From Acidobacteriota bacterium (lineage in GTDB: Bacteria; Acidobacteriota; Terriglobia; Bryobacterales; Bryobacteraceae), in NCBI GenBank assembly GCA_947470805.1, contig CANIVU010000086.1:1-38561 (forward strand): DNA of 38,561 nucleotides, given 5' to 3'. The notes below the pieces were generated by a model that was not told where the DNA came from, made no database searches, and saw only the letters and a list, made by a program, of their open reading frames with translations. Below, piece after piece: positions 886 to 18,703 of this stretch (within the stretch, counting starts at the first letter, position 1; every line of letters begins with the position of its first letter). Position numbers and translations under genes: made by a program.

Positions 886-2193
886 ATGCATTTATCCGCC
901 TGGCTGCGGCTGGCGGCGCGTTCCCTCGCTCCGTTTCCGCTGCTTTTCATACCTCTTTACGCCGAATCCCTTCCGGATCTAGTCACCTTGGCGCTGTCTC
1001 GCAATGGCGATCTGCAGGCCATGCGCAAGCGATCTGACGAAGTCCGCGGCTTGATCCGCCAAGCCCAATTGCGGCCCAATCCCAATCTCGATGTCAGCTA
1101 TTCCAACGGCCCCGTCTTCGGCAGTGAAGGGGAAACCGACATCAGTATCGGCCTCTCGCAATCGATTGAAACAGGCGGCAAGCGAATTCGACGAGTCAGC
1201 CTCGCCGAGGCTGAACTGCGGGAAGTTGAATGGCAAATCGCGGATCGCGAACGGCACCTGCGATCCTCGATCGCCGCTGCCTTTGCCGAGTGGCTGGCGG
1301 TCAGCCGCAACGAGGCAACCGCCCGCCGGCTGCTGGAACTCACCCGCCAGAGTCTTGCGCTCGTCACCGCCCGCGTTGCGCAGGGCGAGGTGGCGGCCCT
1401 GGAGCAATCGCTGCTGCAAGTCGAGTCGAACCGAATCCGGACCGATCTCATTCTCTATACCGGCCAAAGGGAACGCGCCGTGCTGGCACTGCGAAACATC
1501 TGCGGCATTCCCGACACGGAGGCGCCCCCACTGCAGGGCGATCTGCTGCAAATGGCCGCTACGCTTCCCCAGGCAGAAAAGGCCCCCGAAGAGATTGCCG
1601 CCGCACTCCGCACCAGGCCCGATCTGGCCGTGTTGCGCGCAGCGGAACTGATCGGCGACCGCGCCGTAGAGCTAGAGAAAAGCGCCGCCGTCCCCAACAT
1701 CACCGCCTTTACCCGCTACTCGCATCAGCATCAGAGTTCGGACGGCTTCGGCTACTCCTCTGCCCGTCCCATCGGCCCTCTCAGCCGAGTTACCGACCGT
1801 GACAACATCCTCACCGGGGGCGTCAGTATCGCGCTCCCATTCAAGAATCGTAATCAGGGCAACATCCAGGCGGCGATTGCCCGCAAGGAGGCGGTCCGCC
1901 TGCGCCGCGCCTACCTTGAGCAGTCCATTGAGCGGGAGGTGAGTGCAGCCCTTCTCCGTGTTGCCGCCGCGGAAGAGGCCAGCCGCCTCTTCGATGAAGG
2001 CGTCGTCACGTTGGCTGAGAAGAATCTCACGGTCATTCGCAAAACCTACGAACTCGGCGAACTGCGCCTGCTCGACGTCATCAACGAACAGCGCAGGCTG
2101 ATCGAAATTCAACGAACCTACACCGACACGTTGAAAGAGCGTGTCCTGGCCCACATTGAACTCGAATCGGCCCGTGGCAAAGCAAAGCAATAA
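886..2193 (+). CDS. czcC: CzcC-like outer membrane factor (TolC family)
   Basis: This 435-residue protein is the outer-membrane channel of a heavy-metal RND system; it would join the CzcBA complex to the exterior. It begins with a signal peptide (hydrophobic stretch APFPLLFIPLYA, residues 15-26) followed by the TolC-family start LPDLVTLALSRNGDLQAMRK. Two long helical, Arg/Glu/Ala-rich halves follow, as expected for the duplicated outer membrane efflux domain, with the typical ELRLLDVINEQRRLIEIQ segment near the C-terminus. The length is normal for CzcC. A GGGAG ribosome binding site lies just before the ATG. It is followed after 10 bases by czcB, so the genes form an operon. Confidence 0.92.
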   Translation: MHLSAWLRLAARSLAPFPLLFIPLYAESLPDLVTLALSRNGDLQAMRKRSDEVRGLIRQAQLRPNPNLDVSYSNGPVFGSEGETDISIGLSQSIETGGKRIRRVSLAEAELREVEWQIADRERHLRSSIAAAFAEWLAVSRNEATARRLLELTRQSLALVTARVAQGEVAALEQSLLQVESNRIRTDLILYTGQRERAVLALRNICGIPDTEAPPLQGDLLQMAATLPQAEKAPEEIAAALRTRPDLAVLRAAELIGDRAVELEKSAAVPNITAFTRYSHQHQSSDGFGYSSARPIGPLSRVTDRDNILTGGVSIALPFKNRNQGNIQAAIARKEAVRLRRAYLEQSIEREVSAALLRVAAAEEASRLFDEGVVTLAEKNLTVIRKTYELGELRLLDVINEQRRLIEIQRTYTDTLKERVLAHIELESARGKAKQ

Positions 2194-2203
2194 GGAGACA
2201 TTT

Positions 2204-3448
2204 ATGACCCCTCTCTTCCCCTCACTTGTGGCCCTTTGCCTGCTCGCATTTCTAGCGGGTTGCCAAAAGCAGACGCCCGCCGCGGCCGCCCCGGAGTCTA
2301 AAGCCGAAACCGGCCACGACCACGCGGCGGAACCTCACGATGTCCAATTGACTGAAGAGGTCCAACGCGCCAGTGGCTTCGCTTTCGCGACGGCCGCCGC
2401 AAAGAACTTGACTGGAATCATCCAGGCCACAGGCGTCGTCACCGCAAATGAAAGCCGCGTCGCCCATGTCCGTCCGCTTGCTCGCGGCCGCATCTTGAAA
2501 GTTGCCGTGCGCTCTGGCGACCGAGTTAAACAGGGCCAGGTCCTGCTCACCTACGACAACATCGAACTCGGCGAATCTGTCGGAGACTACTTGCGCGCCA
2601 TCGGTGCCCTCCAGCGAGCCCGAACCGAGTTGGATCTCGCCCGCCGTTCCCTCGAACGCGCCACAAATCTTCTCACCTCCGGAGCCATCGCCCGCGCCGA
2701 AGTGGAACGCCGCCAAGCCGAGTTTCACAACACCGAAACGGCCGTTCAGGCACAGCAGGCAGACGAGGCCCGCATCCACGAAAAGCTCCATCGCTTCGGC
2801 CTGGAAGAAGCCGACATCCGCGGGCTCATTAAGACGAACGGCGCCGACTTTCATCGCGAAGTGTCCATTAGCACTCTTCGCGCTCCCTTCGATGGGGCCA
2901 TTCTGAAAGCAGTCGCCGCCGAAGGGGAAACCGTCAGCGCGGAACAGGAACTGTTTACGCTGATAGACACAACCACCGTCTGGATCCTCGCCGATGTCTA
3001 CGAACGCGATATCGCCAGCATTCGCGAGGGCGCTACGGCGGCGGTCACCGTCGATTCGTTTGCCGGCGAAACGCTTACGGGCCGTGTGACCAACGTTTCC
3101 GACTCGCTCGATCCCACCAGCCGCACCGCCAAGGTCCGCGTTGAAGTGGCCAACCACTCGCGCCGCCTGAAGTTAGAGATGTTCGCCAACGTCGCTATTC
3201 CTACCACCCAAAGCCGTTCTGCCCTCGTCGTTCCCGCCTCCGCTCTGCAACAGATCGGAGGCAAGCCGGTCGTCTTTGTCCGCGAATCGCCAACGAAATT
3301 TGAGGCGCGGGAAGTGGAGACTGGCACCCAATGGCCGAATTGGACAGAGATCGTCAAAGGCATCTCGGCCAACGACGTCGTCGTCTCCCAAGGCGCCTTC
3401 CTTCTTAAATCCGAACTCGCCAAGTCCGAACTGGCCCACGAACACTAG
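2204..3448 (+). CDS. czcB: CzcB-like RND periplasmic adaptor (membrane fusion protein), lipoprotein
   Basis: This 414-residue protein links the inner-membrane pump to the outer-membrane channel. The start at 2204 is chosen because AAGGAG sits seven bases upstream and the first residues form a lipoprotein signal with lipobox FLAGC. A short His-rich stretch (GHDHAAEPHD, near residues 38-47) is typical of metal-specific adaptors and may bind the cargo metal. The HlyD-type core follows: barrel-sandwich halves (VRPLARGRILKVAVRSGDRV and later LRAPFDGAILKAVAAEGETV) flanking an alpha-hairpin, then the beta-barrel and membrane-proximal domains (LVVPASALQQIGGKPVVFV). It precedes czcA by eight bases. 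Confidence 0.93.
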   Translation: MTPLFPSLVALCLLAFLAGCQKQTPAAAAPESKAETGHDHAAEPHDVQLTEEVQRASGFAFATAAAKNLTGIIQATGVVTANESRVAHVRPLARGRILKVAVRSGDRVKQGQVLLTYDNIELGESVGDYLRAIGALQRARTELDLARRSLERATNLLTSGAIARAEVERRQAEFHNTETAVQAQQADEARIHEKLHRFGLEEADIRGLIKTNGADFHREVSISTLRAPFDGAILKAVAAEGETVSAEQELFTLIDTTTVWILADVYERDIASIREGATAAVTVDSFAGETLTGRVTNVSDSLDPTSRTAKVRVEVANHSRRLKLEMFANVAIPTTQSRSALVVPASALQQIGGKPVVFVRESPTKFEAREVETGTQWPNWTEIVKGISANDVVVSQGAFLLKSELAKSELAHEH

Positions 3449-3456
3449 AGCCCATC

Positions 3457-6400
3457 ATGATTGAACAACTCATTGCCTTCAGCATCCGCTGGCGTGTACT
3501 CGTCGTTGTCCTGTCCCTTCTCATCGTAGGGTTGGGCGGCTACGCCGCCTTGCGTCTGCCCATTGACGCAGTGCCCGACATCACGACCAACCAGGTGCAG
3601 ATCAACGCCCTCGCGCCAGCCTTCGCTCCCGCCGAGGTCGAAAAGTACATCACTTTTCCGCTGGAAGTCGCCATGGGCAGCCTCCCCGGCAAGGACGAAA
3701 TCCGGTCGATCTCCAAGTTCGGACTCTCGCAGGTCACCATCACGTTTCACGAAGAGGTTGATCTCTATCAGGCCCGGCAACTCGTCTTGGAACGCCTCAT
3801 CCAGGCACAGAATGAACTGCCGGCCGGCGTGCGTCCGGAGATTGCGCCCATTAGCACCGGCCTTGGCGAGATCTACCAGTTTTCGGTGGAAAACGACGCC
3901 AAATCGCCAAATCGCCATCCTCTGATGGAGTTGCGATCCATCCTGGATTGGCAGATCGTGCCCGTCCTTCGCACCGTCCCCGGCGTCATCGAAGTGAACG
4001 TCTACGGGGGCAAGCTTAAGCAGTACGAGGTGCTGATTGATCCAACCAAACTGGTGAGCTACGGTCTGGCGCTGCATGACGTAATCGCCGCGTTGGAGAA
4101 AAACAACGCCAATGTTGGCGGTGCCTACCTCGAACGCGGCGGCGAGCAGCAGCTCATCCGGGGCATCGGCCTGATTCGCAACTTTGAAGACATCGAATCA
4201 ATTGTGGTGTCCGCCAATAAGGGCACGCCGGTCTTTATCCGCAACCTGGGCACCGTCGGCTTCGGATCGCAGGTGCGCCAGGGCGCCGCGACAACCGATG
4301 GCCGGGGCGAAACTGTTCTCGGCATTGCCATGCTGCTGAAGGGAGAGAACAGCCGGCAAGTCGCTGGCCGCGTACATGCGCGGCTGGACGGTCTGCGGAA
4401 ATCCATGCCCCCTGGCGTCGTCCTTCGCACTTCGTACGACCGCAGCGACCTGGTCAACCGCACCATCACGACGGCGGGCTACAACCTGATGGAAGGCGGC
4501 GCCATCGTCATTGTTGTCCTCTTCCTGTTTCTCTTGCAGATCCGCGCCGGGCTCATCGTCTCTGCCGCCATCCCATTTGCCATGCTCATCGCCCTTACCG
4601 GCATGTGGTATTTCGGTGTCTCGGCGAACCTCATGAGTCTCGGCGCCATCGATTTCGGCCTCATTGTCGACGCCGCTGTCATCCTCATCGAAAACTCCGT
4701 CCGGCGGCTGGCACTGGAGCGCCGCCGCCTGGGCCGCGCGCTAACACAACCGGAACGCCTTTCCACCATCCAGGCCGGCATCCTCGAAGTCCGCCAGGCC
4801 AGCCAGTTCGGCGAGATGATCATAATCGCCTCTTATTTGCCCATCCTCGCCCTCGCTGGGATTGAAGGCAAGATGTTCCACCCGATGGCCTTCACCGTCA
4901 TCCTGGCCCTTTGCGGCGCGCTCGTGCTCAGCCTGACGCTGATCCCGGCACTCGCCGCGCTTTTCCTGCGCGACCATGCGACGGGGGCACCCGGAGACAG
5001 CGCTGAGCCAGAGGAAGAAAACCCCGTCATCCGTGCGCTCCTGCATCCCTATCGCGCCCTGCTCGAATGGTCGCTCCGTGCCCCGTGGGTCCCCGTCACC
5101 GGCGCCGCCGCCTCGGTCGCGCTCGCGCTCGTACTCTTCCTCGGTCTCGGCTCGGAGTTCATTCCGGAACTCGATGAAGGCGCCATCGCTATCAGCGCGC
5201 AGCGCCTTCCCAGCGTTTCGCTCGAACAAGGGGTTCGCTCCACCACCCAAATGGAAATCGCGCTCCGCGGAATGCCGGAAATCCGGACCATCGTTAGCCG
5301 GATCGGCCGCCCGGAAATCGCCACCGACCCGATGGGTCCGGACCTGACCGATTGCTATGTCTTCCTGAAAGACCCTGCCGCCTGGCCGAAGCCAAAATCC
5401 AAGGAAACGCTGATCGCAGAAATGGAGGAACGTCTGAAGGCTGTGCCGGGGATGGCGTTCACCTTCTCACAGCCCATCAAGTTCCGCATGCTCGAACTGA
5501 TCGGTGGCATCGGATCCCGCTCCGATGTCGCCGTAAAAGTCTTCGGCGAGGACTTTGAAATCATGGAGAAATCGGCCGGCCAGATCGCCCGGGTTCTGAA
5601 AGCGATTCCGGGCTCTGCCGATGTGAAGGTGCAGCAGATCGAAGGTCTCCCGGCACTGGAAATTGAAGCGGACCGCCGCGCCATTGCCCGCCACGGGATC
5701 AATGTTTCCGACGTGCAGGAATTGACCGGCGCCGCCATCGCCGGTATCCGAGCCACCACGATTCTGGAGGGCTTCAAACGGTTCGATCTCACCGTCCGGC
5801 TTACCCCCGAATCCCGCTCCAGTTCGGCCGCGCTCGGGGCGCTTCTCGTCAATAGTCCCAACGGCGCCAAGATCCCGCTGGCGCAACTTGCCACGCTCCG
5901 CGAAACCGAAGGCGCCGCTGAAATCAGCCGGGAAAACGGTCAGCGCCGCGTATCGATTGAGTCGAACGTCCGCGGCCGCGATCTGGCCACGTTCGTCGAG
6001 GAAGCGCAACGCCGCGTAGAGGCGCAGGTGAAACTGCCGCCGGGCTACCGTCTGGAGTGGGCCGGCACGTATGAGAATCTGCAGGCCGGAAAGCTCCGCC
6101 TCGCCATCGCCGTCCCTGCCACGTTCACTCTCGTTTTCATTCTCCTCTACGCCACGTTCGGCAGCATTCGCCAGGCCCTCCTGATATTTACCGGAATCCC
6201 GCTTGCGCTCACCGGGGGCGTGTTCGCGCTCATACTCAGAGGAATGCCGTTCTCCATCAGTGCCGGGGTTGGATTCATCGCCGTCTCTGGTGTGGCGGTG
6301 CTGAATGGCCTGGTGCTGGTTGGTTTCATCAATCAGCTTCGCGGGGAGGGCCTCCCAATCCGGGACGCCATCCTCGACGGTTGCGTCACCCGTCTGCGTC

Positions 6401-6594
6401 CAGTGCTGATGACGGCCATGGTTGCAAGCCTCGGCTTTCTGCCGATGGCCATCTCCTCCGGCGCCGGGGGCGAGGTCCAACGCCCCATCGCCACCGTTGT
6501 GATCGGCGGTTTGATCACTTCAACCGTTCTCACCCTCGTCGTGCTCCCGGCGCTGTACCGGCGCTTTAGCGGTGTCCTACGGAGTTCGGAGTAG
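3457..6594 (+). CDS. czcA: CzcA-like heavy-metal RND efflux pump (HME family)
   Basis: This 1045-residue inner-membrane proton/metal antiporter has full RND length: TM1, a large periplasmic loop, TM2-6, a second loop and TM7-12. The fourth transmembrane segment carries the CzcA signature AIDFGLIVDAAVILIEN at about residues 397-413, containing the proton-relay acidic residues typical of divalent-cation pumps. The family start IPLD-like motif is here LPIDAVPDITTNQVQINA, near residue 34. Substrates of this class are Zn, Co, Cd or Ni; the sequence alone does not decide which. It lies downstream of czcB and its stop is two bases before the P-type ATPase start, consistent with co-transcription. Confidence 0.95.
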   Translation: MIEQLIAFSIRWRVLVVVLSLLIVGLGGYAALRLPIDAVPDITTNQVQINALAPAFAPAEVEKYITFPLEVAMGSLPGKDEIRSISKFGLSQVTITFHEEVDLYQARQLVLERLIQAQNELPAGVRPEIAPISTGLGEIYQFSVENDAKSPNRHPLMELRSILDWQIVPVLRTVPGVIEVNVYGGKLKQYEVLIDPTKLVSYGLALHDVIAALEKNNANVGGAYLERGGEQQLIRGIGLIRNFEDIESIVVSANKGTPVFIRNLGTVGFGSQVRQGAATTDGRGETVLGIAMLLKGENSRQVAGRVHARLDGLRKSMPPGVVLRTSYDRSDLVNRTITTAGYNLMEGGAIVIVVLFLFLLQIRAGLIVSAAIPFAMLIALTGMWYFGVSANLMSLGAIDFGLIVDAAVILIENSVRRLALERRRLGRALTQPERLSTIQAGILEVRQASQFGEMIIIASYLPILALAGIEGKMFHPMAFTVILALCGALVLSLTLIPALAALFLRDHATGAPGDSAEPEEENPVIRALLHPYRALLEWSLRAPWVPVTGAAASVALALVLFLGLGSEFIPELDEGAIAISAQRLPSVSLEQGVRSTTQMEIALRGMPEIRTIVSRIGRPEIATDPMGPDLTDCYVFLKDPAAWPKPKSKETLIAEMEERLKAVPGMAFTFSQPIKFRMLELIGGIGSRSDVAVKVFGEDFEIMEKSAGQIARVLKAIPGSADVKVQQIEGLPALEIEADRRAIARHGINVSDVQELTGAAIAGIRATTILEGFKRFDLTVRLTPESRSSSAALGALLVNSPNGAKIPLAQLATLRETEGAAEISRENGQRRVSIESNVRGRDLATFVEEAQRRVEAQVKLPPGYRLEWAGTYENLQAGKLRLAIAVPATFTLVFILLYATFGSIRQALLIFTGIPLALTGGVFALILRGMPFSISAGVGFIAVSGVAVLNGLVLVGFINQLRGEGLPIRDAILDGCVTRLRPVLMTAMVASLGFLPMAISSGAGGEVQRPIATVVIGGLITSTVLTLVVLPALYRRFSGVLRSSE

Positions 6595-6596
6595 CC

Positions 6597-8696
6597 ATGG
6601 CAATTTCATCTTCAGCCCCCCAGCGCCAGTTCAAGATCCGTGGTCTCGATTGCGCGGAGGAAGTGGCCATTCTGAAGCGGCAGCTTGGTCCGGCTGCGGG
6701 AGAAGACAACCTCTTTTTCGATGTGCTGCGGGGGCGAATGACCGTGCTGGGGCGCATCCCCGAAACGGCTGAACTCCTTCGGCTCGTCGCTCAAACCGGG
6801 ATGGCTGCCGAGCCGTGGGAGGAGTCGCGGCCGGAGGCCCCGGCTTCGAATCTGCGCGATCGATTCATGATCGCCAGTGGCCTGTTCCTCGCGGCCGGCT
6901 ATCTGGTTCCGGTCGCCGCGTCACACACCCTCTTCGGCCTGGCCGCGCTGCTCGGCGCCTGGTTTATTCTGCCGAAGGCGTGGTTCGCCGCCCGGCACCT
7001 GCGGCCGGACATGAATTTCCTCATGACGGTCGCCGTTTGCGGGGCGATCGGCCTCGGTGATTGGGCGGAAGCCGCCGCCGTGGCATTTCTTTTCGCGCTC
7101 TCCAATTCCCTCGAATCCTGGAGCGTTGGACGAGCTCGCCGCGCCGTGGAGGCGCTGCTCGAAATTGCTCCCGATCAAGTCGAACTCTTGCTGCCAGATG
7201 GGCGCACCCAATCCACCGCGTCCGCGGCCGTCGAACCCGGGCAGAGATTCCGCGTCTCTCCCGGTTCGCGCGTCGGCCTTGATGGAATCGTCGTCTCCGG
7301 CGCCTCGGAAGTAGATCAGGCCCCGATCACGGGGGAAAGCCGGCTCGTACCCAAAGAGGTTGGCTCCGCGGTATTCGCCGGGACGATCAATGGCAATGGA
7401 ACTATCGACGTGGAAGCAACCAAACGATCCACGGAAACCACCATCGCCAAGGTGATTCGCCTGGTGGAACAGGCGCAGGCCAGCCGCTCGCCATCCGAAT
7501 CCTGGGTCGAACGGTTCGCCCGCATTTACACGCCGGCCGTCCTCTTGACGGCGATACTGATCGCCATTCTCCCACCACTCCTGTTGGGCCAACCATGGCA
7601 TCCGTGGATCTATCAGGCTCTCGTTCTCCTCGTAATCGGTTGCCCTTGCGCGCTGGTGATCTCCACTCCCGTGAGCATCGTTGCCGGTCTCACCGGGGCC
7701 GCCCATCAAGGCGTCCTCATCAATGGCGGAAAGGCGTTGGAAGCGGCTGCGCACATCAAGGCAATCGCATTCGACAAGACAGGCACGATCACTCGCGGCC
7801 GCCCTTCCGTCGCCGGAATCTTCCCGCTTGCGGGGCATTCAGAAATGGAACTGCTTTCGATTGCTGCTTCCCTCGAAGCCGGCAGTTCCCATCCATTGGC
7901 GAGAGCCATCCGTGACCACGCGGCGGAACAGGGAATCACTGCGGCGCCAGCCGTCGAATTCCGGATCCTTCCCGGCAAAGGGGCTTCCGCGCTTCTGGGG
8001 GGAACGGCGTATTGGCTTGGCTCGCACAGATATTTGGAAGAACGCGGGGAAGAAACGCCTCCCGTGCACGAGAAGATTGAGCAGCTATCGGCCAGTGGGC
8101 ACTCGGTTGTGGTGATCGGAAACGCGGAACATGTGTGCGGCTTCATCGCGCTGGCCGATCAACTGCGTGAGGATATACCAGCCACGCTGACCGCGCTTCG
8201 TGAACTCGGTGTAGAAAAACTTGTCATGCTCACCGGCGATAATCAAGGCACCGCGCAGGTTGTCGCCGCGGCCGCCGGCATCACCGATTTTCAGGCGGAA
8301 CTCCTTCCCGCCGACAAACTGAAAGTCATTGAAGCACTGGTCGCCAGTCACGGGGCCGTGGCGATGGTCGGCGATGGCGTCAACGACGCGCCGGCCATGG
8401 CGCGCGCCACACTGGGAATCGCGATGGGCGCCATCGGCACGGACGCGGCCATCGAAGCGGCCGACGTCGCCCTCATGGCCGATGACCTCTCTCGCGTCCC
8501 CTGGCTCATCCGCCATTCCCGGCGAACCCTTGGCGTGATCAAACAAAACATCGGACTTTCGCTAGCCGTCAAATTTGCCGTCGCCATTTTGGCATTCTCC
8601 GGCTATGCGTCCCTTTGGGCCGCCATCGCCTCCGATATGGGCGTGTCCTTGCTCGTCATTTTCAATGGCCTCCGGCTGTTGCGCCACCGAAAATAG
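6597..8696 (+). CDS. zntA: ZntA/CadA-like P1B-2 metal-exporting ATPase (Zn/Cd/Pb)
   Basis: This 699-residue ATP-driven inner-membrane exporter has a degenerate N-terminal heavy-metal domain with GLDCAEE (one Cys, CxxE style). It then has the transmembrane metal site CPC (about residues 348-350) followed by SXP, the phosphorylation motif DKTGT (Asp near 393), the nucleotide-domain SSHPLARAI and the hinge VGDGVNDAPA. In the last two membrane helices a Lys (LAVKFAV) and an Asp (AIASDMG) match the conserved Lys/Asp pair of ZntA, which supports subclass P1B-2. It follows czcA by two bases. Pairing a cytosol-to-periplasm ATPase with a periplasm-to-outside CzcCBA pump is a common two-stage detoxification arrangement. 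Confidence 0.93.
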   Translation: MAISSSAPQRQFKIRGLDCAEEVAILKRQLGPAAGEDNLFFDVLRGRMTVLGRIPETAELLRLVAQTGMAAEPWEESRPEAPASNLRDRFMIASGLFLAAGYLVPVAASHTLFGLAALLGAWFILPKAWFAARHLRPDMNFLMTVAVCGAIGLGDWAEAAAVAFLFALSNSLESWSVGRARRAVEALLEIAPDQVELLLPDGRTQSTASAAVEPGQRFRVSPGSRVGLDGIVVSGASEVDQAPITGESRLVPKEVGSAVFAGTINGNGTIDVEATKRSTETTIAKVIRLVEQAQASRSPSESWVERFARIYTPAVLLTAILIAILPPLLLGQPWHPWIYQALVLLVIGCPCALVISTPVSIVAGLTGAAHQGVLINGGKALEAAAHIKAIAFDKTGTITRGRPSVAGIFPLAGHSEMELLSIAASLEAGSSHPLARAIRDHAAEQGITAAPAVEFRILPGKGASALLGGTAYWLGSHRYLEERGEETPPVHEKIEQLSASGHSVVVIGNAEHVCGFIALADQLREDIPATLTALRELGVEKLVMLTGDNQGTAQVVAAAAGITDFQAELLPADKLKVIEALVASHGAVAMVGDGVNDAPAMARATLGIAMGAIGTDAAIEAADVALMADDLSRVPWLIRHSRRTLGVIKQNIGLSLAVKFAVAILAFSGYASLWAAIASDMGVSLLVIFNGLRLLRHRK

Positions 8697-8702
8697 CAGT
8701 CA

Positions 8703-9440
8703 CTACCGCATCGCTACAAACTCAGCCGCCAGCACCGCCGGATGCCGGGTTCTGGCATTCCGCGATGTCCGCACCATTTCTGCCGCGGCAAAACCCGCTT
8801 CCCGGAACTCTTCTAAGAATGCACCCGCATCCTTTGCGCCGGCGATTCACGAAAACCAGTTCGCGTTGCCGGTCTGAAGCGATTCCGGCAGCGCATCCCG
8901 CAGCACCAACTCGGCCCCGGCCACCCGCCCGCCAGGACGCAGGACGCGCGCCAATTCACGGAAGATATCCCCCCGGAACGGATTGAGGTTGAAGATTCCA
9001 TTCACGAGAACCACGTCGATCGACGAATCCGGCAGTGGAAGTGACTCTGCCGCGGCCTGCACGAAATGGACGTTCGACAGGCCGCTTCGCAGCCCGCCCA
9101 ATTGGGCCCGGCCGAGCATGGCGGCGCTGAAATCGAAGCCGATAACAGTCCCACTGTCCCCCACCCGGCCGGCCGCGATCAGGCTATCCAGTCCCGCACC
9201 GCAACCAAGATCGACGACCGTCTGACCCAACTCGATGGGGGCTGAAATCGACACATCCGCAACTCCCGCGAAAGCGTTCACTGGCTCCTCTGGCAAACGG
9301 GAAAGCAACTCCGCCGGATATCCAACGCTCAGCGCGAACGCGGCGCCAACCGGGAATGGGTGGCGGCCCTCTGGTTGCGCCGCCGCCGCGGAGTACGCGC
9401 CGCGCACGCTCTCTCGTAGCGCCTCACCGGCCCCGGTCAT
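8703..9440 (-). CDS. ArsM-like SAM methyltransferase, probable selenoprotein (in-frame TGA)
   Basis: The frame encodes 197 residues, a TGA at 8847-8849, then 47 more in-frame residues to a TAG at 8703-8705, giving 245 residues if TGA is selenocysteine 198. The N-terminal part is a class I methyltransferase close to arsenite methyltransferases: GYPAELLSRLP and NAFAGVADV before the SAM motif VVDLGCGAG (residues 75-83), then FDFSAAML and LRPGG. Residues after TGA (IAGAKDAGAFLEEFREAGF, then RNARTRHPAVLAAE) look like the normal C-terminus of this family, where a Cys stands in a [C][IV][AG]GA context. A SECIS-like hairpin follows the TGA. The start overlaps the preceding desaturase stop by four bases. 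Reading the TGA as a true stop would give a truncated enzyme. The arsenic substrate is inference from family likeness and the ArsR-type regulator. Confidence 0.75.
8815..8834 (-). promoter_or_regulatory. candidate bacterial SECIS element downstream of in-frame TGA
   Basis: On the minus strand, 12 bases after the TGA, AAGGATGC pairs with GCATTCTT (eight consecutive pairs, one G-U) around the four-base loop GGGT. The loop begins 20 bases after the TGA. Known bacterial SECIS elements have a small apical loop starting about 16-37 bases after UGA with a G in the first two loop positions; E. coli fdhF has loop GGUC about 18 bases after its UGA. All of these hold here. The pairing is read directly from the sequence; that SelB binds it is inference. 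Confidence 0.7.
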
Positions 9441-10231
9441 TGTTTGCCTCTCCCATCCCAGAGAAGAGGCGCCAGCGTCTGCGTCACGATGTTCTTTGGA
9501 AACGCTTCAATCCCCGTAAAGCCCAGTCGCGCCGGAATCGCGGCGGCCGGCAGATACGCAGTACCAAACACCCAATCCCACACACTCAGGGCAATCCCGA
9601 AGTTCCTGTTCATCGGGCCGCTGTCGGGATGCGTGTGGTGCCAGATATGCATCTCCGGGCTATTGATTAAGTAGCGCAGCCACCCAATGCGCGCCCGCAG
9701 ATTCGCGTGGGCAAAATGGCCGATCAGCGTGTTGAAAACGCCGTAGGTAAACATCGCCTCCACTCCAAACCCGAAGAAGGCGGCACATGGATACAGCAGT
9801 GCCCGATAGACGATGACCTCCACCCCGTGGAAGCGCCAGTTCCCGATCCAATCCATCTCCTCAATGCTGTGATGCACTCGGTGAAACCGCCACAGAATCG
9901 GCACTCGGTGCAGCAGGTTGTGAATGCCCCACTGCGCGAAATCAAATACCAGCAACAGCACCACAAACTGCACGGCGAACGAGCGTCCTGACATCACTCC
10001 AAGGTAGAAAACCTCGCGCAGACGCAGCAGGTCCATCGTGCGGTCCAGCCAGGCAACCGCGTGGATCGACAGCGCGCCAATCAGGACTCCCAGATACTCG
10101 CTGTTAAACACAAGGTAGGCAACGTCGGAAACAATACCCCGGCGCAGCAGTTTCTGCGGCGAACGCGGCCAAACGCGTTCCACCAATATGAACAGCAGCG
10201 ATAACCCGATCAGCCACACCGCATAGTTCAT
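9437..10231 (-). CDS. sterol desaturase / fatty acid hydroxylase family membrane protein
   Basis: This 264-residue membrane protein belongs to the non-heme di-iron hydroxylase superfamily. The His clusters are visible: H104xxxH108 (HNLLH), H117xxHH (HRVHH, 117-121), HFAHAN near 172-177 and HIWHHTH at 195-201. Hydrophobic segments surround them (residues 4-18, 45-60, 85-100, 140-170). Family members hydroxylate or desaturate lipids; the substrate here is unknown. It is sandwiched in the ArsR-methyltransferase operon, overlapping both neighbours by four bases, so its expression should be coupled to theirs. Why a lipid-type oxygenase sits in a metalloid-type operon is not clear. Confidence 0.85.
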   Translation of the reverse strand: MNYAVWLIGLSLLFILVERVWPRSPQKLLRRGIVSDVAYLVFNSEYLGVLIGALSIHAVAWLDRTMDLLRLREVFYLGVMSGRSFAVQFVVLLLVFDFAQWGIHNLLHRVPILWRFHRVHHSIEEMDWIGNWRFHGVEVIVYRALLYPCAAFFGFGVEAMFTYGVFNTLIGHFAHANLRARIGWLRYLINSPEMHIWHHTHPDSGPMNRNFGIALSVWDWVFGTAYLPAAAIPARLGFTGIEAFPKNIVTQTLAPLLWDGRGKQ

Positions 10232-10920
10232 ACCGGGGTCCGTCCCCCGCCGATTCCTTCCACCTTCCAGCCAAGCGCCTTCCAGTCCGGGAACCCATGC
10301 GATAGCCGGAGCGCCTTCCTGCCGCTCTGCCGGAGCGCCGCGACGGCATCGTCGGATAGGAAACAGTACGGGCCACGGCAGTAGGCGACGATTTCACATT
10401 CCTCGGGCAGGCCCTTCATGCTCTTCTTCAACTCCGCCAGCGGGATGTTCCGCGCCCCGGGAATGTGCCCGTCGGCGTACTCCTCGGCCGGCCGAACATC
10501 TAGCACCAGTACGCTCCCCTCCCGCATCCGGCGCCGTAACTCCTGCAGGGAGATCGCCTCCAGCGAATTGCGGTCCTTCCGGTAGACCCCAGCCAGTTTT
10601 TCGATCTCCGCCAAACGCTTTTCGCCGGCGGTTCGAAGCGATTGGCACAGCGCGAAGACGTCGTCCCCGGCAAGTCTATAGTGGACATGCGTCCCCTCCT
10701 TCCTGGCCTCCACCAGCCCCGCCGTACGCAGGACCTGCAGGTGCTGGGAGGCGTTGGCGACACTCAACCCCGACATCCTGGCGAGTTCCTCCACGCTTCG
10801 CTCGCGCTGCGCGAGGAAGTCTAGAATTTCAAGCCGGCGTCCGCTCGCCAAGGCCCGCCCGATTCGCGCGAACTGGTCGAAGAGATCCTGCTTGGTGCGA
10901 TTGCCGGAAGGAGACGCCAT
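10228..10920 (-). CDS. ArsR-family transcriptional regulator fused to rhodanese domain
   Basis: This 230-residue protein has an N-terminal winged helix (residues about 12-95; recognition region SGLSVANASQHLQVLRTAGL) and a C-terminal rhodanese domain (about 122-225) with active-site loop CRGPYC (Cys181 to Cys186) preceded by LVLDVRPAEEYADGHIPGA. Such ArsR-rhodanese fusions are known. The usual ArsR metal-binding CVC motif in the recognition helix is absent, so sensing may use the rhodanese Cys residues (persulfide, selenium or metalloid), which is inference. It is the first gene of the operon and a palindromic operator overlaps its promoter eight bases before the ATG, so autorepression is likely. 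Confidence 0.9.
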   Translation of the reverse strand: MASPSGNRTKQDLFDQFARIGRALASGRRLEILDFLAQRERSVEELARMSGLSVANASQHLQVLRTAGLVEARKEGTHVHYRLAGDDVFALCQSLRTAGEKRLAEIEKLAGVYRKDRNSLEAISLQELRRRMREGSVLVLDVRPAEEYADGHIPGARNIPLAELKKSMKGLPEECEIVAYCRGPYCFLSDDAVAALRQSGRKALRLSHGFPDWKALGWKVEGIGGGRTPV

Positions 10921-10928
10921 CTATCAAG

Positions 10929-10959
10929 TATTCAAGCAAGTTCTTGAATACAATGTCAA
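10929..10959 (-). promoter_or_regulatory. promoter with palindromic operator for the arsR-rhodanese operon
   Basis: On the minus strand a consensus -35 box TTGACA (10954-10959) is followed after 18 bases by a weaker -10 box, TTGAAT (10930-10935). A perfect inverted repeat, TATTCAAG and CTTGAATA separated by six bases, occupies 10929-10950, covering the spacer and the -10 box. Binding there would block RNA polymerase, the classic ArsR/SmtB mode. The -35 box overlaps the stop codon of the truncated phosphorylase upstream. Confidence 0.75.
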
Positions 10960-11450
10960 CCCAGGAACGCCGCCCCCGCCCGTGCGATTCCCTTCAAAAT
11001 CCCTAGCCCCTCGGACTCCGTTCCTGTATTGAACTGGTCCCCTTCATGGTCTATGGCGTTGCTAACCATCGCGACAACGGCCACATTGACCCGCCGCGCG
11101 CTGGCGAAGGCAAAGAGGGAGGCGGCCTGCATCTCCACGGCCAGCACGCCTTCGGCGCCCCAGCGGCGGATCTCCTCGCTGGTTTCCCGGTACGGGGCGT
11201 CCGTGGTCCAAACGCGGCCCGCCCGCACAGCCCAGCCAGTGGCCGGCAGTTCGTGTTCAAAATGGGATTCGATCCGAGTCGGGCACGCCACTTCAGCCGC
11301 GGGCGGCAAGTAATGGAAAGAGGTGCCCTCGTCGCGAATCGCACCTGTGGCGATGACCAGACACGGAAGCGGGAGATCTGGCGCGATCCGGCCGGCGGAC
11401 GTCAGCCCGACGATCAGTTGCGCTCCGGCCGCATCTGCGCGAAGAGGCGG
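10956..11450 (-). pseudogene. 5'-truncated nucleoside phosphorylase (purine/uridine phosphorylase family)
   Basis: The frame is open from just after a TAA at 11451-11453 and reads as the middle and C-terminal part of a nucleoside phosphorylase: GLTSAGRIAPDLPLPCLVIA, TGAIRDEGTSFHYLPP, then GVLAVEMQAASLFAFA, the conserved Glu-Met purine/uridine site, and a normal end. Only about 165 of some 240-250 usual residues remain; the N-terminal phosphate-binding part is gone. No ATG or GTG with a ribosome site is present, only an internal TTG at 11309. It ends inside the arsR promoter. The missing part stops seven bases from the next gene's stop, suggesting a deletion or insertion junction at about 11450-11460. 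Confidence 0.8.
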
Positions 11451-11459
11451 TTAAGGCCG

Positions 11460-11771
11460 CTATTTGACCGGCGGGACGATGCGTACTTCCAAAGCTAAAA
11501 GATCACTCTCACTGTCGCCGGTCGCGTCAACCACAACGCTCTGTCCGGCCTTCAATCCTGAAACTCCCATTTTCTTCTTGTCACGATTGACGAAGGTATC
11601 TTTGTTCAGCTTGATGGAGTGATTCTTCCCGTCTTTGGATTTGACATCGAGCTTGGAAGTCTGAACTTTCGTAACGACTCCAATGACACGGTAATCGTCA
11701 TGCGCCGATAGGGGCATCAAAGCAGAGAAAACTAGCGCGAGGGCAATAGCGATTGAAGTTCGTCTGGTCAT
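11460..11771 (-). CDS. small exported protein, DUF5666-like
   Basis: This 103-residue protein has a signal peptide (MTRRTSIAIALALVFSALMP, cleavage expected after LSA) and a compact beta-rich domain. The domain contains GVVTKVQTSKLDVKSKDGK and a GLKAGQSVVVDATG segment, typical of small OB-like periplasmic domains annotated DUF5666. The start at 11771 is preferred over two upstream ATGs because AAAAGGA lies nine bases before it. It is the last gene of the 21902-to-11460 metal operon, 67 bases after the P-type ATPase. A metal-binding role is inferred only from context. Confidence 0.75.
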   Translation of the reverse strand: MTRRTSIAIALALVFSALMPLSAHDDYRVIGVVTKVQTSKLDVKSKDGKNHSIKLNKDTFVNRDKKKMGVSGLKAGQSVVVDATGDSESDLLALEVRIVPPVK

Positions 11772-11838
11772 ATGGTTCATTCCTTTTCTATTTAGATTCA
11801 TTCTTGCCCGGGAGCCATTTGGGAAACAATAGCTAACG

Positions 11839-13755
11839 TCACGGGAGGGGAGGCGACGTGGAATCTTCGATTCTTACCCGAAGCAACTTCACTGAGTTCA
11901 AAAACACGAGGATGTCCGGGCCAAGATGAAGAATCGCAGCCTGAATCGGTCCAATCCAGCCCATCAGGGCCGCGGTAATGCCGAGCACGTGGACGACGCC
12001 GACGCCGACAAAAAGGTTCTCCTGAATCGTTCGATAGGACCGCCGGGCGAGCGCGCGGACCAGAACGATTTTGCCAAGGTCGTCCGTCATCAATGCGATG
12101 TCGGCGGCTTCGAGGGCGGCTTGCGTCCCGCGCGCCCCCATTGCGATTCCGACGTCGGCGCGAGCAAGAGCGGGTGCGTCGTTGATCCCGTCGCCAACCA
12201 TGGCGACCCGGTATCCTTCCTTTTGAAACCTCGCAATACTCTCGACCTTTTGTCCAGGAAGCAGTTCCGCTTCTACGTCGTCGATTCCCAACTCCGCGGC
12301 GACCTGCAGCGCGACCCTCTGGCTATCGCCTGTCAGCATCACGACTTTCCGGATACCTGAAGCCTTCAACCGGATGATGGCTTCCCTCGCCCCCTCGCGC
12401 ACTTGGTCTGCAAGTTCCAGAATTCCCACCGTCTTGCCGTCGAGGGCGAGGAACACCGCGATGCCCGCCATCGCGGTGTCCAATGCGGGGACATCGATAC
12501 CGTTTTCAGACATTAGTTTGGCGTTGCCTACTAAAACGGACAGGCCGTCGACGGTTGCGCGAACACCACGGCCCTGGACAACTTCAAACGCGGCCGGCTC
12601 GGGCACGGTGAGCGCGCGCCCTGCAGCAAAAGCGACCACGGCTTGCGCCAGGGGGTGGCCCGAACGGCGGTCAGCGGCTGCGGCCAGGGCCGAGATTCGA
12701 TCTTCGGTAAGCGAAGGCTCCAGCGACCGGACGCGCACGACCTCGGGACGGCCTGCTGTGAGCGTACCCGTTTTGTCGAAGACCAGAAGATTCACCTTCG
12801 CAAGGGATTCGAGGTAAAGCCCGCCCTTCACCAGGACGCCATTGCGGGCCGCGCGGGCGATCGCCGCAATCATGACCAGAGGCGTAGCCAGTCCTAGTTC
12901 GGCGGGCGAGGTGAAAATCAGAAGCGTGACGATCTTCCGCACGTCGTGGGTGACGAAATAAACGACGAAAAGAAATATGAAAACGACTGGAATCAACCAG
13001 GACGCCACGCGGTCCGCCAGCTTCTGCACGGGTGCTTGTTGATCTTCCGCGTTTTCAACCAATGCAATGATGCGGGCGAACATGGTGTCCTGCCCGGTCT
13101 TGTCGGTGCGAATGTCTAGCGCACCCGATTCCACCACCGTTCCGGCGAGAACTTCCGAGGCAGGCTGTTTCTCAACCGGGAGACTTTCCCCGGTGATGGC
13201 AGCCTCGTTTACCGAGGCATTGCCATTTATGACGGTCCCATCCACCGGCATTTTCTCGCCGGCCCGCACCAGCACTACATCGCCAACCTTCAGTTCGCCG
13301 ATTGGAACGATCCGCTCTCCCGCCTCCTGCCGAATCGTTGCCATTTGAGGAACCGAGCCAATCAACGCTTTGATTGATGCCCGCGCACGATCCGTATTGA
13401 GGTCGGCGATAAATTCGGCGACTAAAATGATACTCATCAACACAGCTCCGGCGAGCGGTTCCCCGCCGGCGATTGCGATTCCGGTGGCGATTGTGACGAA
13501 GATCTCCGTGCCGATCTTGTGCTCACGCAGGAGGTCCAGCAAGCCTACTTTCACCAAGGGGTAGAGGCCTATTGCCACGGCAACCCAGAGCGCCTGAATA
13601 GGAGCGATATTGCGCCAGTAAAGCAGGCTCACGAAGGCGACAAGGCAAATGCGGGCTACCTCGATCCAGCGACCGCGAGTCATGAGCGCGGCGGTGGAGG
13701 AATCCGACCGGGCAACCGGCGCCGGTTGAGTTTGTTCTGTGGAGGTTTTGGTCAT
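11839..13755 (-). CDS. heavy-metal P1B-type ATPase with SPA in place of CPC
   Basis: This 638-residue ATPase lacks an N-terminal metal-binding domain. It has the actuator TGES motif, the phosphorylation site DKTGT (Asp near 327), the nucleotide-domain SGHPLAQAV and the hinge [10 protein letters not shown], so it should be able to hydrolyse ATP. The transmembrane metal motif that is normally CPC reads SPA (residues 283-285, within FTSPAELGLATP), so both Cys are absent. The last helix carries HLGPDILVFLNSVKLL, resembling the His-containing last helix of P1B-4 pumps (usual motif SPC). The substrate is therefore uncertain; Co or another divalent ion is a guess. A GTG two codons upstream is an alternative start; the ATG has AGG five bases before it. 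Confidence 0.88.
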   Translation of the reverse strand: MTKTSTEQTQPAPVARSDSSTAALMTRGRWIEVARICLVAFVSLLYWRNIAPIQALWVAVAIGLYPLVKVGLLDLLREHKIGTEIFVTIATGIAIAGGEPLAGAVLMSIILVAEFIADLNTDRARASIKALIGSVPQMATIRQEAGERIVPIGELKVGDVVLVRAGEKMPVDGTVINGNASVNEAAITGESLPVEKQPASEVLAGTVVESGALDIRTDKTGQDTMFARIIALVENAEDQQAPVQKLADRVASWLIPVVFIFLFVVYFVTHDVRKIVTLLIFTSPAELGLATPLVMIAAIARAARNGVLVKGGLYLESLAKVNLLVFDKTGTLTAGRPEVVRVRSLEPSLTEDRISALAAAADRRSGHPLAQAVVAFAAGRALTVPEPAAFEVVQGRGVRATVDGLSVLVGNAKLMSENGIDVPALDTAMAGIAVFLALDGKTVGILELADQVREGAREAIIRLKASGIRKVVMLTGDSQRVALQVAAELGIDDVEAELLPGQKVESIARFQKEGYRVAMVGDGINDAPALARADVGIAMGARGTQAALEAADIALMTDDLGKIVLVRALARRSYRTIQENLFVGVGVVHVLGITAALMGWIGPIQAAILHLGPDILVFLNSVKLLRVRIEDSTSPPLP

Positions 13756-13764
13756 ATCCACCTG

Positions 13765-14415
13765 CTACTTCGTGCCGGACGCCGCTGGCGGGGCCATTGG
13801 GGCTGTCAACTCGTGAGCGCGCCGCGTGCGGTCCGACCGGGATTCCATTGCCGAGGAATAGAAGCCCGCGCTGTTCAACGTGATGGTGATGGTCTCTCCG
13901 CTTGGGTTCTCCCAAAACCAGCCGTGCATGCCGGCAAAGGGAGCGATGAGAGTTCCACTACTTGCCTGGCGGTCTTTCTTGTCATAGCTTTGCTCGGCTC
14001 CTTTTCCACTTCCAGGGTCGCCGTGAAAATCGTGGGAGACCGCGGCAGAGGCTGTCCACGAGAACATCATGGAGGCATCCTTTTCCAGGCGGTACTTGTA
14101 CTCTAAATACTCGTATGGTCCGAGCTTGAGCACCGTCGAATCGACTTTGTATCCTGCGCTGTAGTATCCGATCGGGCCGTCCTGGACTGGCTTGAACATC
14201 GTTGCACCCGCAGGAGCCTCCACTGCTTTAGCGGCCGCAGGAGTCGACATCGCGGTTAGGCCCAGTGCAGCGCCGGTGTGGAGCGGATCAAGCCCATACT
14301 CAGCGGGAAGCACGATTGTGACTAGCAGCACGCCTGCCACGGCGAGGGCGACGGCGGTGGTGACCGCCAGTTTTCGTTTTGACGGAGGTTCCGGTGTGGG
14401 TAGCTGTGGAGTCAT
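13765..14415 (-). CDS. transmembrane anchor protein (metal operon accessory)
   Basis: This 216-residue protein has a short cytosolic N-terminus, one transmembrane segment (VALAVAGVLLVTIVLPAEYG, about residues 20-39) and a periplasmic domain ending with FAGMHGWFWENPSGETITIT. This layout matches small proteins annotated as transmembrane anchor protein that sit beside HupE/UreJ-like genes in czc-type clusters. Function is unknown. The start overlaps the preceding hupE-like stop by four bases (ATGA), and the P-type ATPase starts nine bases after its stop, so the genes are translationally coupled. Confidence 0.8.
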   Translation of the reverse strand: MTPQLPTPEPPSKRKLAVTTAVALAVAGVLLVTIVLPAEYGLDPLHTGAALGLTAMSTPAAAKAVEAPAGATMFKPVQDGPIGYYSAGYKVDSTVLKLGPYEYLEYKYRLEKDASMMFSWTASAAVSHDFHGDPGSGKGAEQSYDKKDRQASSGTLIAPFAGMHGWFWENPSGETITITLNSAGFYSSAMESRSDRTRRAHELTAPMAPPAASGTK

Positions 14416-15107
14416 GATTTTGCTGTGAAATATCCTGTCAATTGATAGCCCACCAGAACGAAGCCCGCGCACATGAGAAGCGAGTTCGTCAGGTAGGCGT
14501 GCTTCATGTAACCGGGGCGAGTGCGCCAAAAGCTCAGGGCGATCAGGACGCCAGTGAGCGCGAGCAACTGGCCGATCTCCACGCCCACATTGAAGCTCAC
14601 GATGTTGGTGGTCAAGCCATTCGTCGAGAGCGCGAAATCCTGAAGTTTGGTCGCCAGCCCGAAACCGTGGAAGAAGCCGAAGACCAAAACCGCAACGCGG
14701 GTGTTTGGCTGAAATCCGAGAAAGCGGCGAAATCCGCCGAGGTTCTCGAACCCTTTGTAAACGATAGAGAGCCCGATGATGGCATCGATCAGGTAAGGAT
14801 TCACGCGGATGCCGCCCAGCGCTCCTGCGAGCAGTGTAATGCTGTGGCCGATGGTGAAGAGGCTGACGTAGAGAAGAATATCCTTCAGGCGGTAGAGAAA
14901 GAAGATGACGCCAACCAGGAATAGTAGATGGTCGTACCCGGTGACCATGTGCTTCGCTCCCAAGTACATGAGCGGAATGATCGCGGCTCCATCAATGAGC
15001 TGCAGGTATTGAGCGTCCTTTGATGAGAGCCCATGCGCGCTCACCGTGGTGGGCGCGCATAGGAACAGGGCAATGAGGATGGCGCTGAGGCGTTTCCAAT
15101 GTGCCAT
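14412..15107 (-). CDS. HupE/UreJ-family membrane protein
   Basis: This 231-residue protein has a signal peptide (LIALFLCAPTTVSA) and about six membrane segments. The family motifs are clear: GYDHLLFLVG (His/Asp in the second segment), FTIGHSITL, VFGFFHGFGLA and NVGVEIGQL. HupE and UreJ are thought to bring nickel into cells or maturation systems; versions within czc-type operons are common but not well characterised, so either import or accessory function is possible. It lies six bases after the YcnI-like gene and overlaps the anchor protein gene. Confidence 0.88.
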   Translation of the reverse strand: MAHWKRLSAILIALFLCAPTTVSAHGLSSKDAQYLQLIDGAAIIPLMYLGAKHMVTGYDHLLFLVGVIFFLYRLKDILLYVSLFTIGHSITLLAGALGGIRVNPYLIDAIIGLSIVYKGFENLGGFRRFLGFQPNTRVAVLVFGFFHGFGLATKLQDFALSTNGLTTNIVSFNVGVEIGQLLALTGVLIALSFWRTRPGYMKHAYLTNSLLMCAGFVLVGYQLTGYFTAKS

Positions 15108-15113
15108 GGCGGG

Positions 15114-15581
15114 TTATTGTTTGCGCGGAGCGAGAGTGGTAACCGCCGTTGGCCGCGTACCGTTAGGGCCTTTGGTCCAGTCACTGACGGTGCCATCGGC
15201 GAACTTTTGCCGAAGGGTCCAAACTAGCTGCGTTTTGTCTCTAGGGTTGCGGGCGACAAACGAGAACTCCACGAATTCGCCAGGTTTCACGTCCATCGTC
15301 CAGGTAATGGCGGTAATCCGATCGCCATCCTTTTTCAGCTCGTGCTTCCAACCCATTGGAACGGCCATTGCCTCAACGGTGACACCTTCGGGCACTTCCA
15401 ACTCGACCGATTTGGTTGTTACTTTTCCCTCGGTTGGGACGCGGACGATGTACTTCTCCGTCGCACCCGCCATGGACTCGCGGGGCGAGATGGTTACGTG
15501 TGCGAGGGAAACGACGGGCATCATGCAGGCCAAGCCTGCCAGGGCAATCATGTTGGACAACCGAAAATGTTTCATGGTCAT
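15114..15581 (-). CDS. YcnI-like copper-binding exported protein (DUF1775)
   Basis: This 155-residue protein has a signal peptide ending SLA followed directly by His28 (HVTISPRESMAG). In Bacillus YcnI the mature N-terminal His forms a mono-histidine copper brace, and the same placement is seen here. The DUF1775 domain continues with TEKYIVRVPTEGKVTTKSVE and ends in the usual W-containing segment DWTKGPNG. The start is placed at 15581 because AGGA lies five bases upstream. It is the first gene after the second czcA, eight bases away. A copper role within an otherwise Czc-like operon is inferred from the family. Confidence 0.88.
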   Translation of the reverse strand: MTMKHFRLSNMIALAGLACMMPVVSLAHVTISPRESMAGATEKYIVRVPTEGKVTTKSVELEVPEGVTVEAMAVPMGWKHELKKDGDRITAITWTMDVKPGEFVEFSFVARNPRDKTQLVWTLRQKFADGTVSDWTKGPNGTRPTAVTTLAPRKQ

Positions 15582-15588
15582 TGCTTTC

Positions 15589-18500
15589 CTAATCCTTGTT
15601 TGGTTCGTTATGCTTCGTTCGCCCAGCGGCATAGTAAACCGCCGGGACCACCACCATGTTGAGGGCAGTAGATGTTAAGAGGCCAAAGAGAATCACCATG
15701 GCCATGGGAGCTTGAATTTCGCTGCCGGGCTGGCCCATTCCCAAGGCGATGGGAATGAGCGCCAACCCTGCGGCCAGCGCAGTCATGAGGATGGGCGCCA
15801 GTCGTTCCGTCGCCCCCCGAAGAACGGCCTCGCGCCAATCGGTGACGCCTTCCACCTGCAGCAAATGGCGAATGTGCGAAACGAGCATAATGCCATTGCG
15901 TGTGGCAATCCCAAACAGCGTGATGAAGCCGATGATCGAAGCGACTGAGAGCACGCCGCCTGCAAGGTAGACGCCGGCGACTCCGCCTACCAACGCCAGT
16001 GGAAGATTCAGCATGACGATCAACGCGTCGCGAGGTGAACCGAATGCCGTCGTGAGCAATAGGAAGATCGCGAAGATGACGCCCACGCTGAGAACGATCA
16101 ACCGTTTTGAAGCCGCGGCTTCGCTTTCAAACTGCCCGCCGTATTCCACCCGATAGCCCTGCGGAAACTTGACCTGGCTGGCAACCGCCAAGCGAATCTC
16201 GTTCACCACGCTGAGCAGGTCGCGGCCTGCGACGTTGGCCTGAATGACGATCTTGCGTTGCACTCCTTCCCGGCTAATGAAGTTCGCGCCGCGATCCTCG
16301 ACGATGTCGGCCACCGCATCCAGCGGCACCTTCGCGCCGGAGGGCGAGTCAATCAAAGTCTTGCCGATTGCTTGCAGATCGACCGATTTAACCTCAGGAA
16401 AGCGCACGACCAGCGGAAAGCTGATCTGGCCTTCCAAAACCCGATTCACCTCGACGCCGACGAACGCGGTTTGGATCTGCGCCGCCACAGCGCCGGGCTG
16501 AAGCCCCAGGCGTCCCGCATCCTCCGGCCGAACCCGAACTCGCAACGTGGGGATATCGGTTTGCTGCTCGACGGAAATATCGACTGCGCCGCTCACCCCC
16601 TTGATCGCTGTCTCGATCTGGCGCGCCAGCGAACGAAGAAGCGGCAGGTCATCACCAAAGACCTTGATCGCGATGTTGGCTCGTGTTCCCGACAGCATGT
16701 GATCGATACGGTGCGAGATGGGCTGCCCAATCGTCACGTTCATGCCGGGGAGCAGTGTAACCCGCTCGCGGATCTCGGCCATGACAGCGTCCTTAGGACG
16801 AGCCTTCATTCGCAACGTGACATCCACCTCGGCCGACTCGACACCTTGGACGTGTTCGTCAAGCTCTGCTCTGCCGGTGCGGCGCGCTGTGGAAACTACT
16901 TCAGGAACATCCAGCAGGATACGTTCGAGCCCTCGCCCGAGATTGTCCGAATCCGCAAGGCTGGTGCCGGGCAACGTCACGGCACTGACCGTTAGAGTAC
17001 CTTCGTTAAACTCCGGAAGGAAGGCGCGGCCCGTTTGAGAGATTGCAAAGCCGGCAACCCCGAGCGCCACTGCCGCAGGAAGAATGACCAGGGCAGGATG
17101 ATTCAACGATGCCCGAAGAAATGGCTGGTAGGCTCTCTTGAGTTGCCGGACCAGCCAAGGCTCATGGCCCTGCAGGATGGACTTCGCATTCGGAAGTAGT
17201 AAGGAACAGAGCGCCGGGGTCACTGTTAGCGCAACGGCCAGCGATGCGGTCAGGCTGACGATGTAGGCGAACCCGAGCGGCGAGAGGAGTCGCCCTTCAA
17301 CGCTTCCCAAGGCAAAAAGCGGCAAGAAGACGAGCGCCACGATGAGCGTGGCAAACACCACGGAGCCTCGGATCTCGCTACTGGCTTTGTAGATGACTTC
17401 GAGCGGGGGCACCCGTTCGCTCTCTGGCAAAAGAGCATTCTCCCGCAAACGCCGGATGACGTTTTCCACGTCGATTATCGCGTCGTCCACCAGTTCTCCA
17501 ATGGCAATCGCCAGGCCGCCCAGGCTCATCGTGTTGATCGTGACGCCGAACCAGTTCATGGTGATGATCGCGGCCATCAACGACAAGGGGAGCGCGAGCA
17601 GCGTGATGATCGCCGCGCGGAAGTTCATCAGAAACAGGACCACGACGATGACGACGAGGATTGCTCCATCGCGAAGCGCCTTGGTCAAGTTTTCCAGAGA
17701 GCGTTCAATGAAGTCAGCTTGCCGGAACACTTGCTTATCGATCTTCATTCCGGCTGGCAGGCCTTTTTGAATATCGTCGAGCGTTGCGTCCAGCCGCTGT
17801 GTGAGATCGAGCGTGTTCGCGCCGGGCTGCTTCTGAATGCCCAACACGACTGCAGCCTCGGCATTGTGCGAGCCTTCGCCGCGCTTCAATGCCGGGCCTA
17901 TGCGGACCTCAGCAACGTCGCGGACGAGAATGGGCCGGCCTTCGCGCGACGTGACAGCAATCTGTCCGATCGTGGCTACTGAGGTTGCGCGGCCGACGCC
18001 TTGGATCAGATACTCCTGTCCACCGGAGGCGCGAAAACCGGCCGACGAGTTTTGGCTCCCTTGACGAAGTGCCGACTCTACTTGCTCCAGCGACACCGCG
18101 TATTCCCGCATCAATTGCGCGGAGACCAACACCTGATACTGTTTCTGTTCGCCCCCGGTGGGAATCACCTGAGCCACTCCCGGGACGGCGAGAAGGCGAC
18201 GGCGAATGATTGAGTCGGCCGCGGTTCGAACTTCCATGGCCGTATGGCGTTCGGATTCCAACGTGATGAACAGGATCTCGCCCATAATCGACGAGATCGG
18301 CGCGAGGAAGGGCTTCTCCACACTGGAAGGTAATGTACCGGCGACGAGGGAGAGTTTCTCGTTCACGGTCTGACGGGCCCGGTTGATATCCTGCCCCCAA
18401 TCGAACTCCACCCAGATCACGGCGACGCCCACTGCCGTAGCGGAGCGCACACGCCGAACGCCAGGCGCGCCGTTGATCGCTGACTCGATTGGAAACGTGA

Positions 18501-18693: not shown

Positions 18694-18703
18694 CGTTGAG
18701 TCC

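Follow-up and report, generated by a model that had tools for sequence, protein, structure and literature searches.

We describe here a methyltransferase gene in a contig of an Acidobacteriota bacterium (CANIVU010000086.1 of assembly GCA_947470805.1; all 38,561 nucleotides were analysed and are called the window below) and conclude that the UGA codon lying within it is very probably decoded as selenocysteine (Sec). The complete ArsM-like frame occupies positions 8703..9440 of the reverse strand, with an ATG at 9440 and a TAG at 8703-8705. Its translation holds a single TGA (8847-8849, reverse strand), which forms codon 198 and is followed by 47 further codons; without read-through the frame has 197 residues. 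Judged from its sequence, the product is very probably a 245-residue class I S-adenosylmethionine (SAM) methyltransferase of the ArsM superfamily carrying Sec198. In the AlphaFold model of the protein (predicted local distance difference test score, pLDDT, 93.1) the SAM domain has the ArsM fold, ArsM proteins are the top structural matches, and two strands of the predicted fold fall in the tail encoded after the UGA. A phmmer alignment with CmArsM places U198 on Cys224 and G148 on position 174 within one gap-free stretch, and V60 on position 72. The sole other cysteine, C80, belongs to the motif DLGCGAG. The first-pass annotation of this DNA had called the frame in the same way, with 47 in-frame codons after the TGA and a TAG six bases from the stop of a convergent P-type ATPase gene (whose frame ends at 8696), and had placed the TGA at an arsenic-binding Cys and the only other Cys in the SAM motif; all of this was borne out.

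The UGA is kept in relatives of the gene. Of 297 sampled genomes from the same phylum, the matches listed show a close homologue in five, that of the window included (all at E 4.4e-76 or better); the four other proteins are 57-60% identical to the window protein and all five genes contain one TGA. A search of the Candidatus Methylomirabilis phylum (95 genomes), run at E 1e-45, yielded nine genes in eight genomes (E 1.2e-109 or better, L045 among them), with one TGA each. The resulting 14 clade genes from two phyla share the motif WF[AS]U[IV]AGA[KR], with TGA in 14 of 14 and no Cys form. Rather than ending at the TGA, all 14 continue past it in an open frame; the C-terminus is common to 13, the tail of L082 being about 20 residues shorter. 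To compare the wider family we used an alignment of 83 rows, made up of 33 UGA genes (14 among the same-phylum matches listed and 19 from the second phylum), second-phylum rows without a stop (4/24 fetched) and same-phylum rows without a stop (the best-scoring loci, 20 hand-picked ones, L057 and the second gene of L017); the protein of L030 duplicates that of L029. At position 224 these rows have UGA in 33 cases, Cys in 49 and TAA in one. Thus the pattern looked for in a selenoprotein, a UGA conserved in homologues with Cys at the equivalent position of the wider family, is present at residue 198.

The genome of the window encodes the Sec machinery expected for a bacterial selenoprotein. The selA (478.9 bits, cut-off 267.9), selB (376.7 bits, cut-off 242.25) and selD genes (365.3 bits, cut-off 125) and a tRNA-Sec (72.1, cut-off 47) all score above their cut-offs, and ARAGORN reads the tRNA as SeC with anticodon tca. 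The selD gene for selenophosphate synthetase (L013, G000:C8:33103-34020) has one in-frame TGA of its own, so that SelD is probably also a selenoprotein. In genomes picked by hand, selA exceeded the cut-off in 12 of the 14 other UGA genomes (13 of the same phylum and that of L045) versus 2 of 10 without a listed UGA row; the corresponding numbers in the second phylum were 14 of 15 (G374 being without it) versus 12 of 14. The association of selA with the UGA is hence limited to the first genome set and does not discriminate in the second phylum.

Downstream of the UGA lies a hairpin resembling a selenocysteine insertion sequence (SECIS) at 8815..8834 (reverse strand), in which AAGGATGC (8834-8827) pairs with GCATTCTT (8822-8815) to give a stem of 8 bp closed by the loop GGGU (8826-8823). 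It starts 12 bases past the TGA, its distance from UGA to loop is 20 nt and its folding energy is -7.8 kcal/mol. According to the rule set out for bacterial SECIS elements in PMC13188914, the loop measures 3-9 nt, the stem 4-16 bp and the spacing 16-37 nt, a G stands in the first two loop positions and the minimum free energy is -7.5 or lower; the window hairpin fits this rule, which is weak evidence taken alone. A hairpin passing the rule was present in 32 of the 33 UGA homologues, where 9.5 would be expected from synonymous shuffling of the 60-base stretches; in the remaining gene, L018, the energy of -6.2 falls short of the limit. As the 33 genes are mutually related, these counts do not amount to 33 independent tests. 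The hairpin is persuasive solely as part of this homologue set. The first-pass annotation had described the eight-pair GGGU hairpin correctly, down to its start 12 bases after the TGA, and its selenocysteine reading is supported by the conserved TGA, the sel genes and the homologues. Of the findings that it had named as refuting this reading, absent sel genes and homologues ending at the TGA are contradicted by the data, and a misread TGC or TGT is very unlikely given the same TGA throughout the clade; its hairpin argument is weak when the window alone is considered, as detailed below.

The ligand columns separate the UGA genes from ordinary ArsM. All three conserved ArsM cysteines are reportedly required for the conversion of As(III) to monomethylated arsenic (MMA), and cysteines 174 and 224 for that of MMA to dimethylated arsenic (DMA), according to PMC6950371. 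Cys occupies positions 72, 174 and 224 together in 47 of the 83 rows. Every one of the 33 UGA rows has Gly at 174, and their position 72 is V (24), T (6), I (2) or L (1). The three-cysteine set of ArsM is accordingly absent from the window protein, which has V60, G148 and U198. With the other two ligand cysteines replaced by V60 and G148, the predicted selenium-ligand site cannot copy the three-thiolate site of ArsM. No substitute conserved His, as proposed for TtArsM, was found among the columns where at least 90% of the UGA rows agree on a residue that Cys rows seldom have, which are P23, F29, F57 and G148. An ordinary three-Cys ArsM (L057) is also encoded in the window genome. As read from the alignment, the loss of both other ligand cysteines in UGA forms is new here for the genes sampled; this split between three-Cys and Sec forms was not found in the literature searched, which covers few of the subscription papers.

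Two further genes deserve mention at these columns. In genome G005 one gene, entered as two rows (L022 and L052), pairs Cys at 224 with Gly at 174 and Thr at 72; it shares contig C123 with a UGA version, forming a natural Cys/Sec pair for comparison. In genome G301, in which neither selA nor tRNA-Sec exceeded the cut-off, the position of the Sec codon is a TAA (L089:2080-2082, forward strand), and positions 174 and 72 are Gly and Val. Past the TAA the frame remains similar to that of its nearest UGA relative, L090, from which it differs there by 19 synonymous codon changes and 10 others, compared with 51 and 30, respectively, before the TAA. The TAA may be a sign of recent decay once Sec decoding had been lost, an error of the assembly or a case of UAA recoding.

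A tree was built by a quick method from 81 rows, with L052 and L030 dropped and the three ligand columns removed. The clade of the window gene forms one branch of 14 rows, all with Sec (support 100). A division with support 98 separates 46 Cys rows from a group made up of the UGA rows, L022 and L089, and two changes between Sec and Cys are needed; thus the ligand split in these sequences, although sharp, is essentially one evolutionary event. Long branches lead to L022, L056, L072, L088 and L105, and the placement of L022 is unsure. Repeated convergence as a source of the Sec-Cys coupling was rejected, because the tree needs just these two changes and the sign test had a single supported pair of independent events to draw on (p 1). 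Two genomes of the window's own family, G187 and G289, are without a clade gene (best E 1.1e-34 and 3.4e-34). The distribution of the clade is therefore patchy, and transfer of the gene between phyla is possible. A search for plasmid carriage matched 331 records, every one below 60% identity.

Upstream of the methyltransferase, the gene of a fatty acid hydroxylase superfamily protein (9437..10231, reverse strand; PF04116, E 5.9e-30) overlaps the methyltransferase start by 4 bases and is itself overlapped by 4 bases by a gene for an ArsR/SmtB-type regulator fused to a rhodanese domain (10228..10920, reverse strand; NF033788 77.4 bits, cut-off 55; PF00581 and PF01022). The three genes likely form one operon under that regulator. 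The convergent P-type ATPase gene (PF00122, PF00702) lies at 6597..8696 on the forward strand. Within about 20 kb (window 886-8696 and 11839-20230) there are two efflux systems of the RND type and two P-type ATPases, a probable metal-resistance region. Neighbours were compared by blastp of called open reading frames (ORFs) from the 13 other clade stretches against each other and against the window ORFs starting at 2000-20000, a procedure that truncates or overlooks ORFs with an internal TGA. The widest neighbour group occurred in 5 of the 13 stretches (in L099 it is an ABC-transporter ATPase) and the next in 3. Conserved neighbours as a clue to the substrate were thus abandoned, there being no common operon across the 13 stretches. 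The neighbours of L045 include ABC and UPF0014 genes, and L017 has an ArsR gene as well as an ordinary ArsM. In genome G266 a TIGR04053 radical SAM/SPASM protein (L048:6719-7894, reverse strand; 445.5 bits, cut-off 395) is encoded directly upstream of the UGA methyltransferase.

The explanation we favour as a whole, and regard as reasonably probable, joins Sec decoding by the organism's own machinery to an ArsM-superfamily methyltransferase in which Sec is a metal(loid) ligand. SelA, SelB, SelD and tRNA-Sec of the organism would insert Sec at UGA 8847-8849, SelB and the downstream hairpin, acting as the SECIS, directing the insertion. The gene lies in a probable metal-resistance region and is apparently controlled by an ArsR-family regulator. 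In the enzyme, the strongly nucleophilic and soft Sec selenolate would hold or activate the methyl acceptor, a metal(loid), next to SAM for methylation, acting as its one soft ligand or as a nucleophile. For a metal(loid) substrate as such we see a somewhat better than even chance; the candidates would be an arsenical, possibly pre-methylated, or another soft element. Were it arsenite, one selenolate would have to stand in for three thiolates. Arsenite is a doubtful substrate, because two of the three arsenic ligands are missing, and it could still serve, since TtArsM of Thermus thermophilus HB27 is described in PMC8649762 as an arsenite methyltransferase working with a single cysteine. A methylated arsenical bound through a single bond would suit the Sec site better, because DMA is reported in PMC3877260 to bind one AS3MT cysteine. 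Given the lost ligand cysteines and the ordinary three-Cys ArsM in the genome, a single selenolate probably takes the place of the three thiolates in the Sec enzyme, whose substrate may be a different one. The broader proposal for the UGA clade, to which we give slightly less than an even chance, is that one selenolate took over from the three-thiolate site, residue 224 being Sec, 174 Gly and 72 no longer Cys, and that these enzymes catalyse a reaction other than arsenite methylation, or act on another substrate, alongside an ordinary ArsM in the same cell.

Several observations weigh against this explanation. Two of the three arsenic ligands are missing, and the window protein falls below all curated ArsM cut-offs tried: it scores 164.2 bits with PRK11873/NF008823 (cut-off 263) and 189, 155.3 and 173.8 bits with NF041537, NF041536 and NF047649 (cut-offs 510, 575 and 460), the latter matches stopping at about profile position 230 and so covering the methyltransferase part alone. 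Apart from the methyltransferase, the blastp comparison of called ORFs found no window neighbour gene shared with the 13 other clade stretches. Clade genome G266 (72% complete) has no selA over the cut-off and its single tRNA-Sec match over the cut-off is called tRNA-Ser by ARAGORN; G104 likewise has no selA over the cut-off, yet its tRNA-Sec was found. With our version of the SECIS rule, which allows one mismatch, a passing hairpin follows 123 of the 1159 TGAs that the two window strands contain. The fold z-score of the 71-base hairpin region is -0.14, and equally good folding was obtained in 71 of 200 synonymous shuffles of the gene's codons. An Rfam scan of the window gave 0 matches at the gathering score. 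As stand-alone proof of Sec the hairpin was therefore rejected.

Among other readings, a distinctly possible, if less than even, one is that the Sec enzyme methylates a thiol, a selenol or an organic acceptor, for instance one tied to the lipid-type hydroxylase of the operon, with Sec198 in a redox or nucleophilic role and not as a metal(loid) ligand. The absence of the Cys72 and Cys174 equivalents from 33 of 33 UGA forms would fit this, as would the hydroxylase superfamily protein as operon partner and the retention of an ordinary three-Cys ArsM in the same genome; against it, ArsM or Sec-ArsM supplies the nearest solved structures and the curated families with the best scores, an ArsR-family regulator lies upstream, and the one-cysteine TtArsM methylates arsenite. 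That the UGA is a true stop, giving a 197-residue methyltransferase with the remainder untranslated, is very improbable: the frequency of passing hairpins in the window would allow it, but UGA and open frame are kept throughout the clade, the hairpin recurs in all but one UGA gene, the tail supplies two strands of the fold and the sel machinery is complete. A frameshift, a pseudogene or a TGC or TGT misread as TGA, suggested by the Cys of ordinary ArsM at this position, has a negligible chance, because independent genomes of two phyla carry the same TGA, and none of the 14 clade genes has Cys at this position.

Gene calling that takes UGA as a stop would truncate the protein at codon 197 and drop a fifth of its residues, the active-site one among them. 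The findings add a stand-alone Sec clade, spread over two phyla and sharply split at the arsenic-ligand columns, to the ArsM superfamily. This split raises the testable question whether one selenolate equals two or three thiolates in arsenic methylation or whether Sec marks another substrate. A Sec arsM was on record by 2008 (PMC2398784). In the selenoprotein table of PMC13188914, the Sec arsenite methyltransferase WP_011987699.1 (UxxG) stands above the heading 'Predicted with high confidence' and three Sec-methyltransferase fusion families, with 2 or 3 Sec, stand below it. As Sec arsenite methyltransferases have thus been published, the window gene adds to a known kind of selenoprotein, in a stand-alone clade. 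Compared by its table entry only, WP_011987699.1 resembles the window protein in having Sec at UxxG in a SAM methyltransferase of the PRK11873 superfamily, and differs in that the window protein lies under the PRK11873 cut-off. We take WP_011987699.1 to come from Alkaliphilus/Clostridium oremlandii. The proteins of NF041537, NF041536 and NF047649, which carry an AhpD, DUF2284 or UXPK-star part, share with the window protein a Sec methyltransferase part with UxxG; unlike them, the window protein has one Sec and no second domain. In contrast to canonical ArsM/AS3MT (CmArsM 4fr0, CrArsM 5evj), with Cys72 and Cys174, it has V60 and G148. TtArsM, likened here by its description, provides a precedent for a one-ligand enzyme such as we propose; nevertheless, it uses Cys77 instead of Sec and is described as evolutionarily distant from other arsenite methyltransferases.
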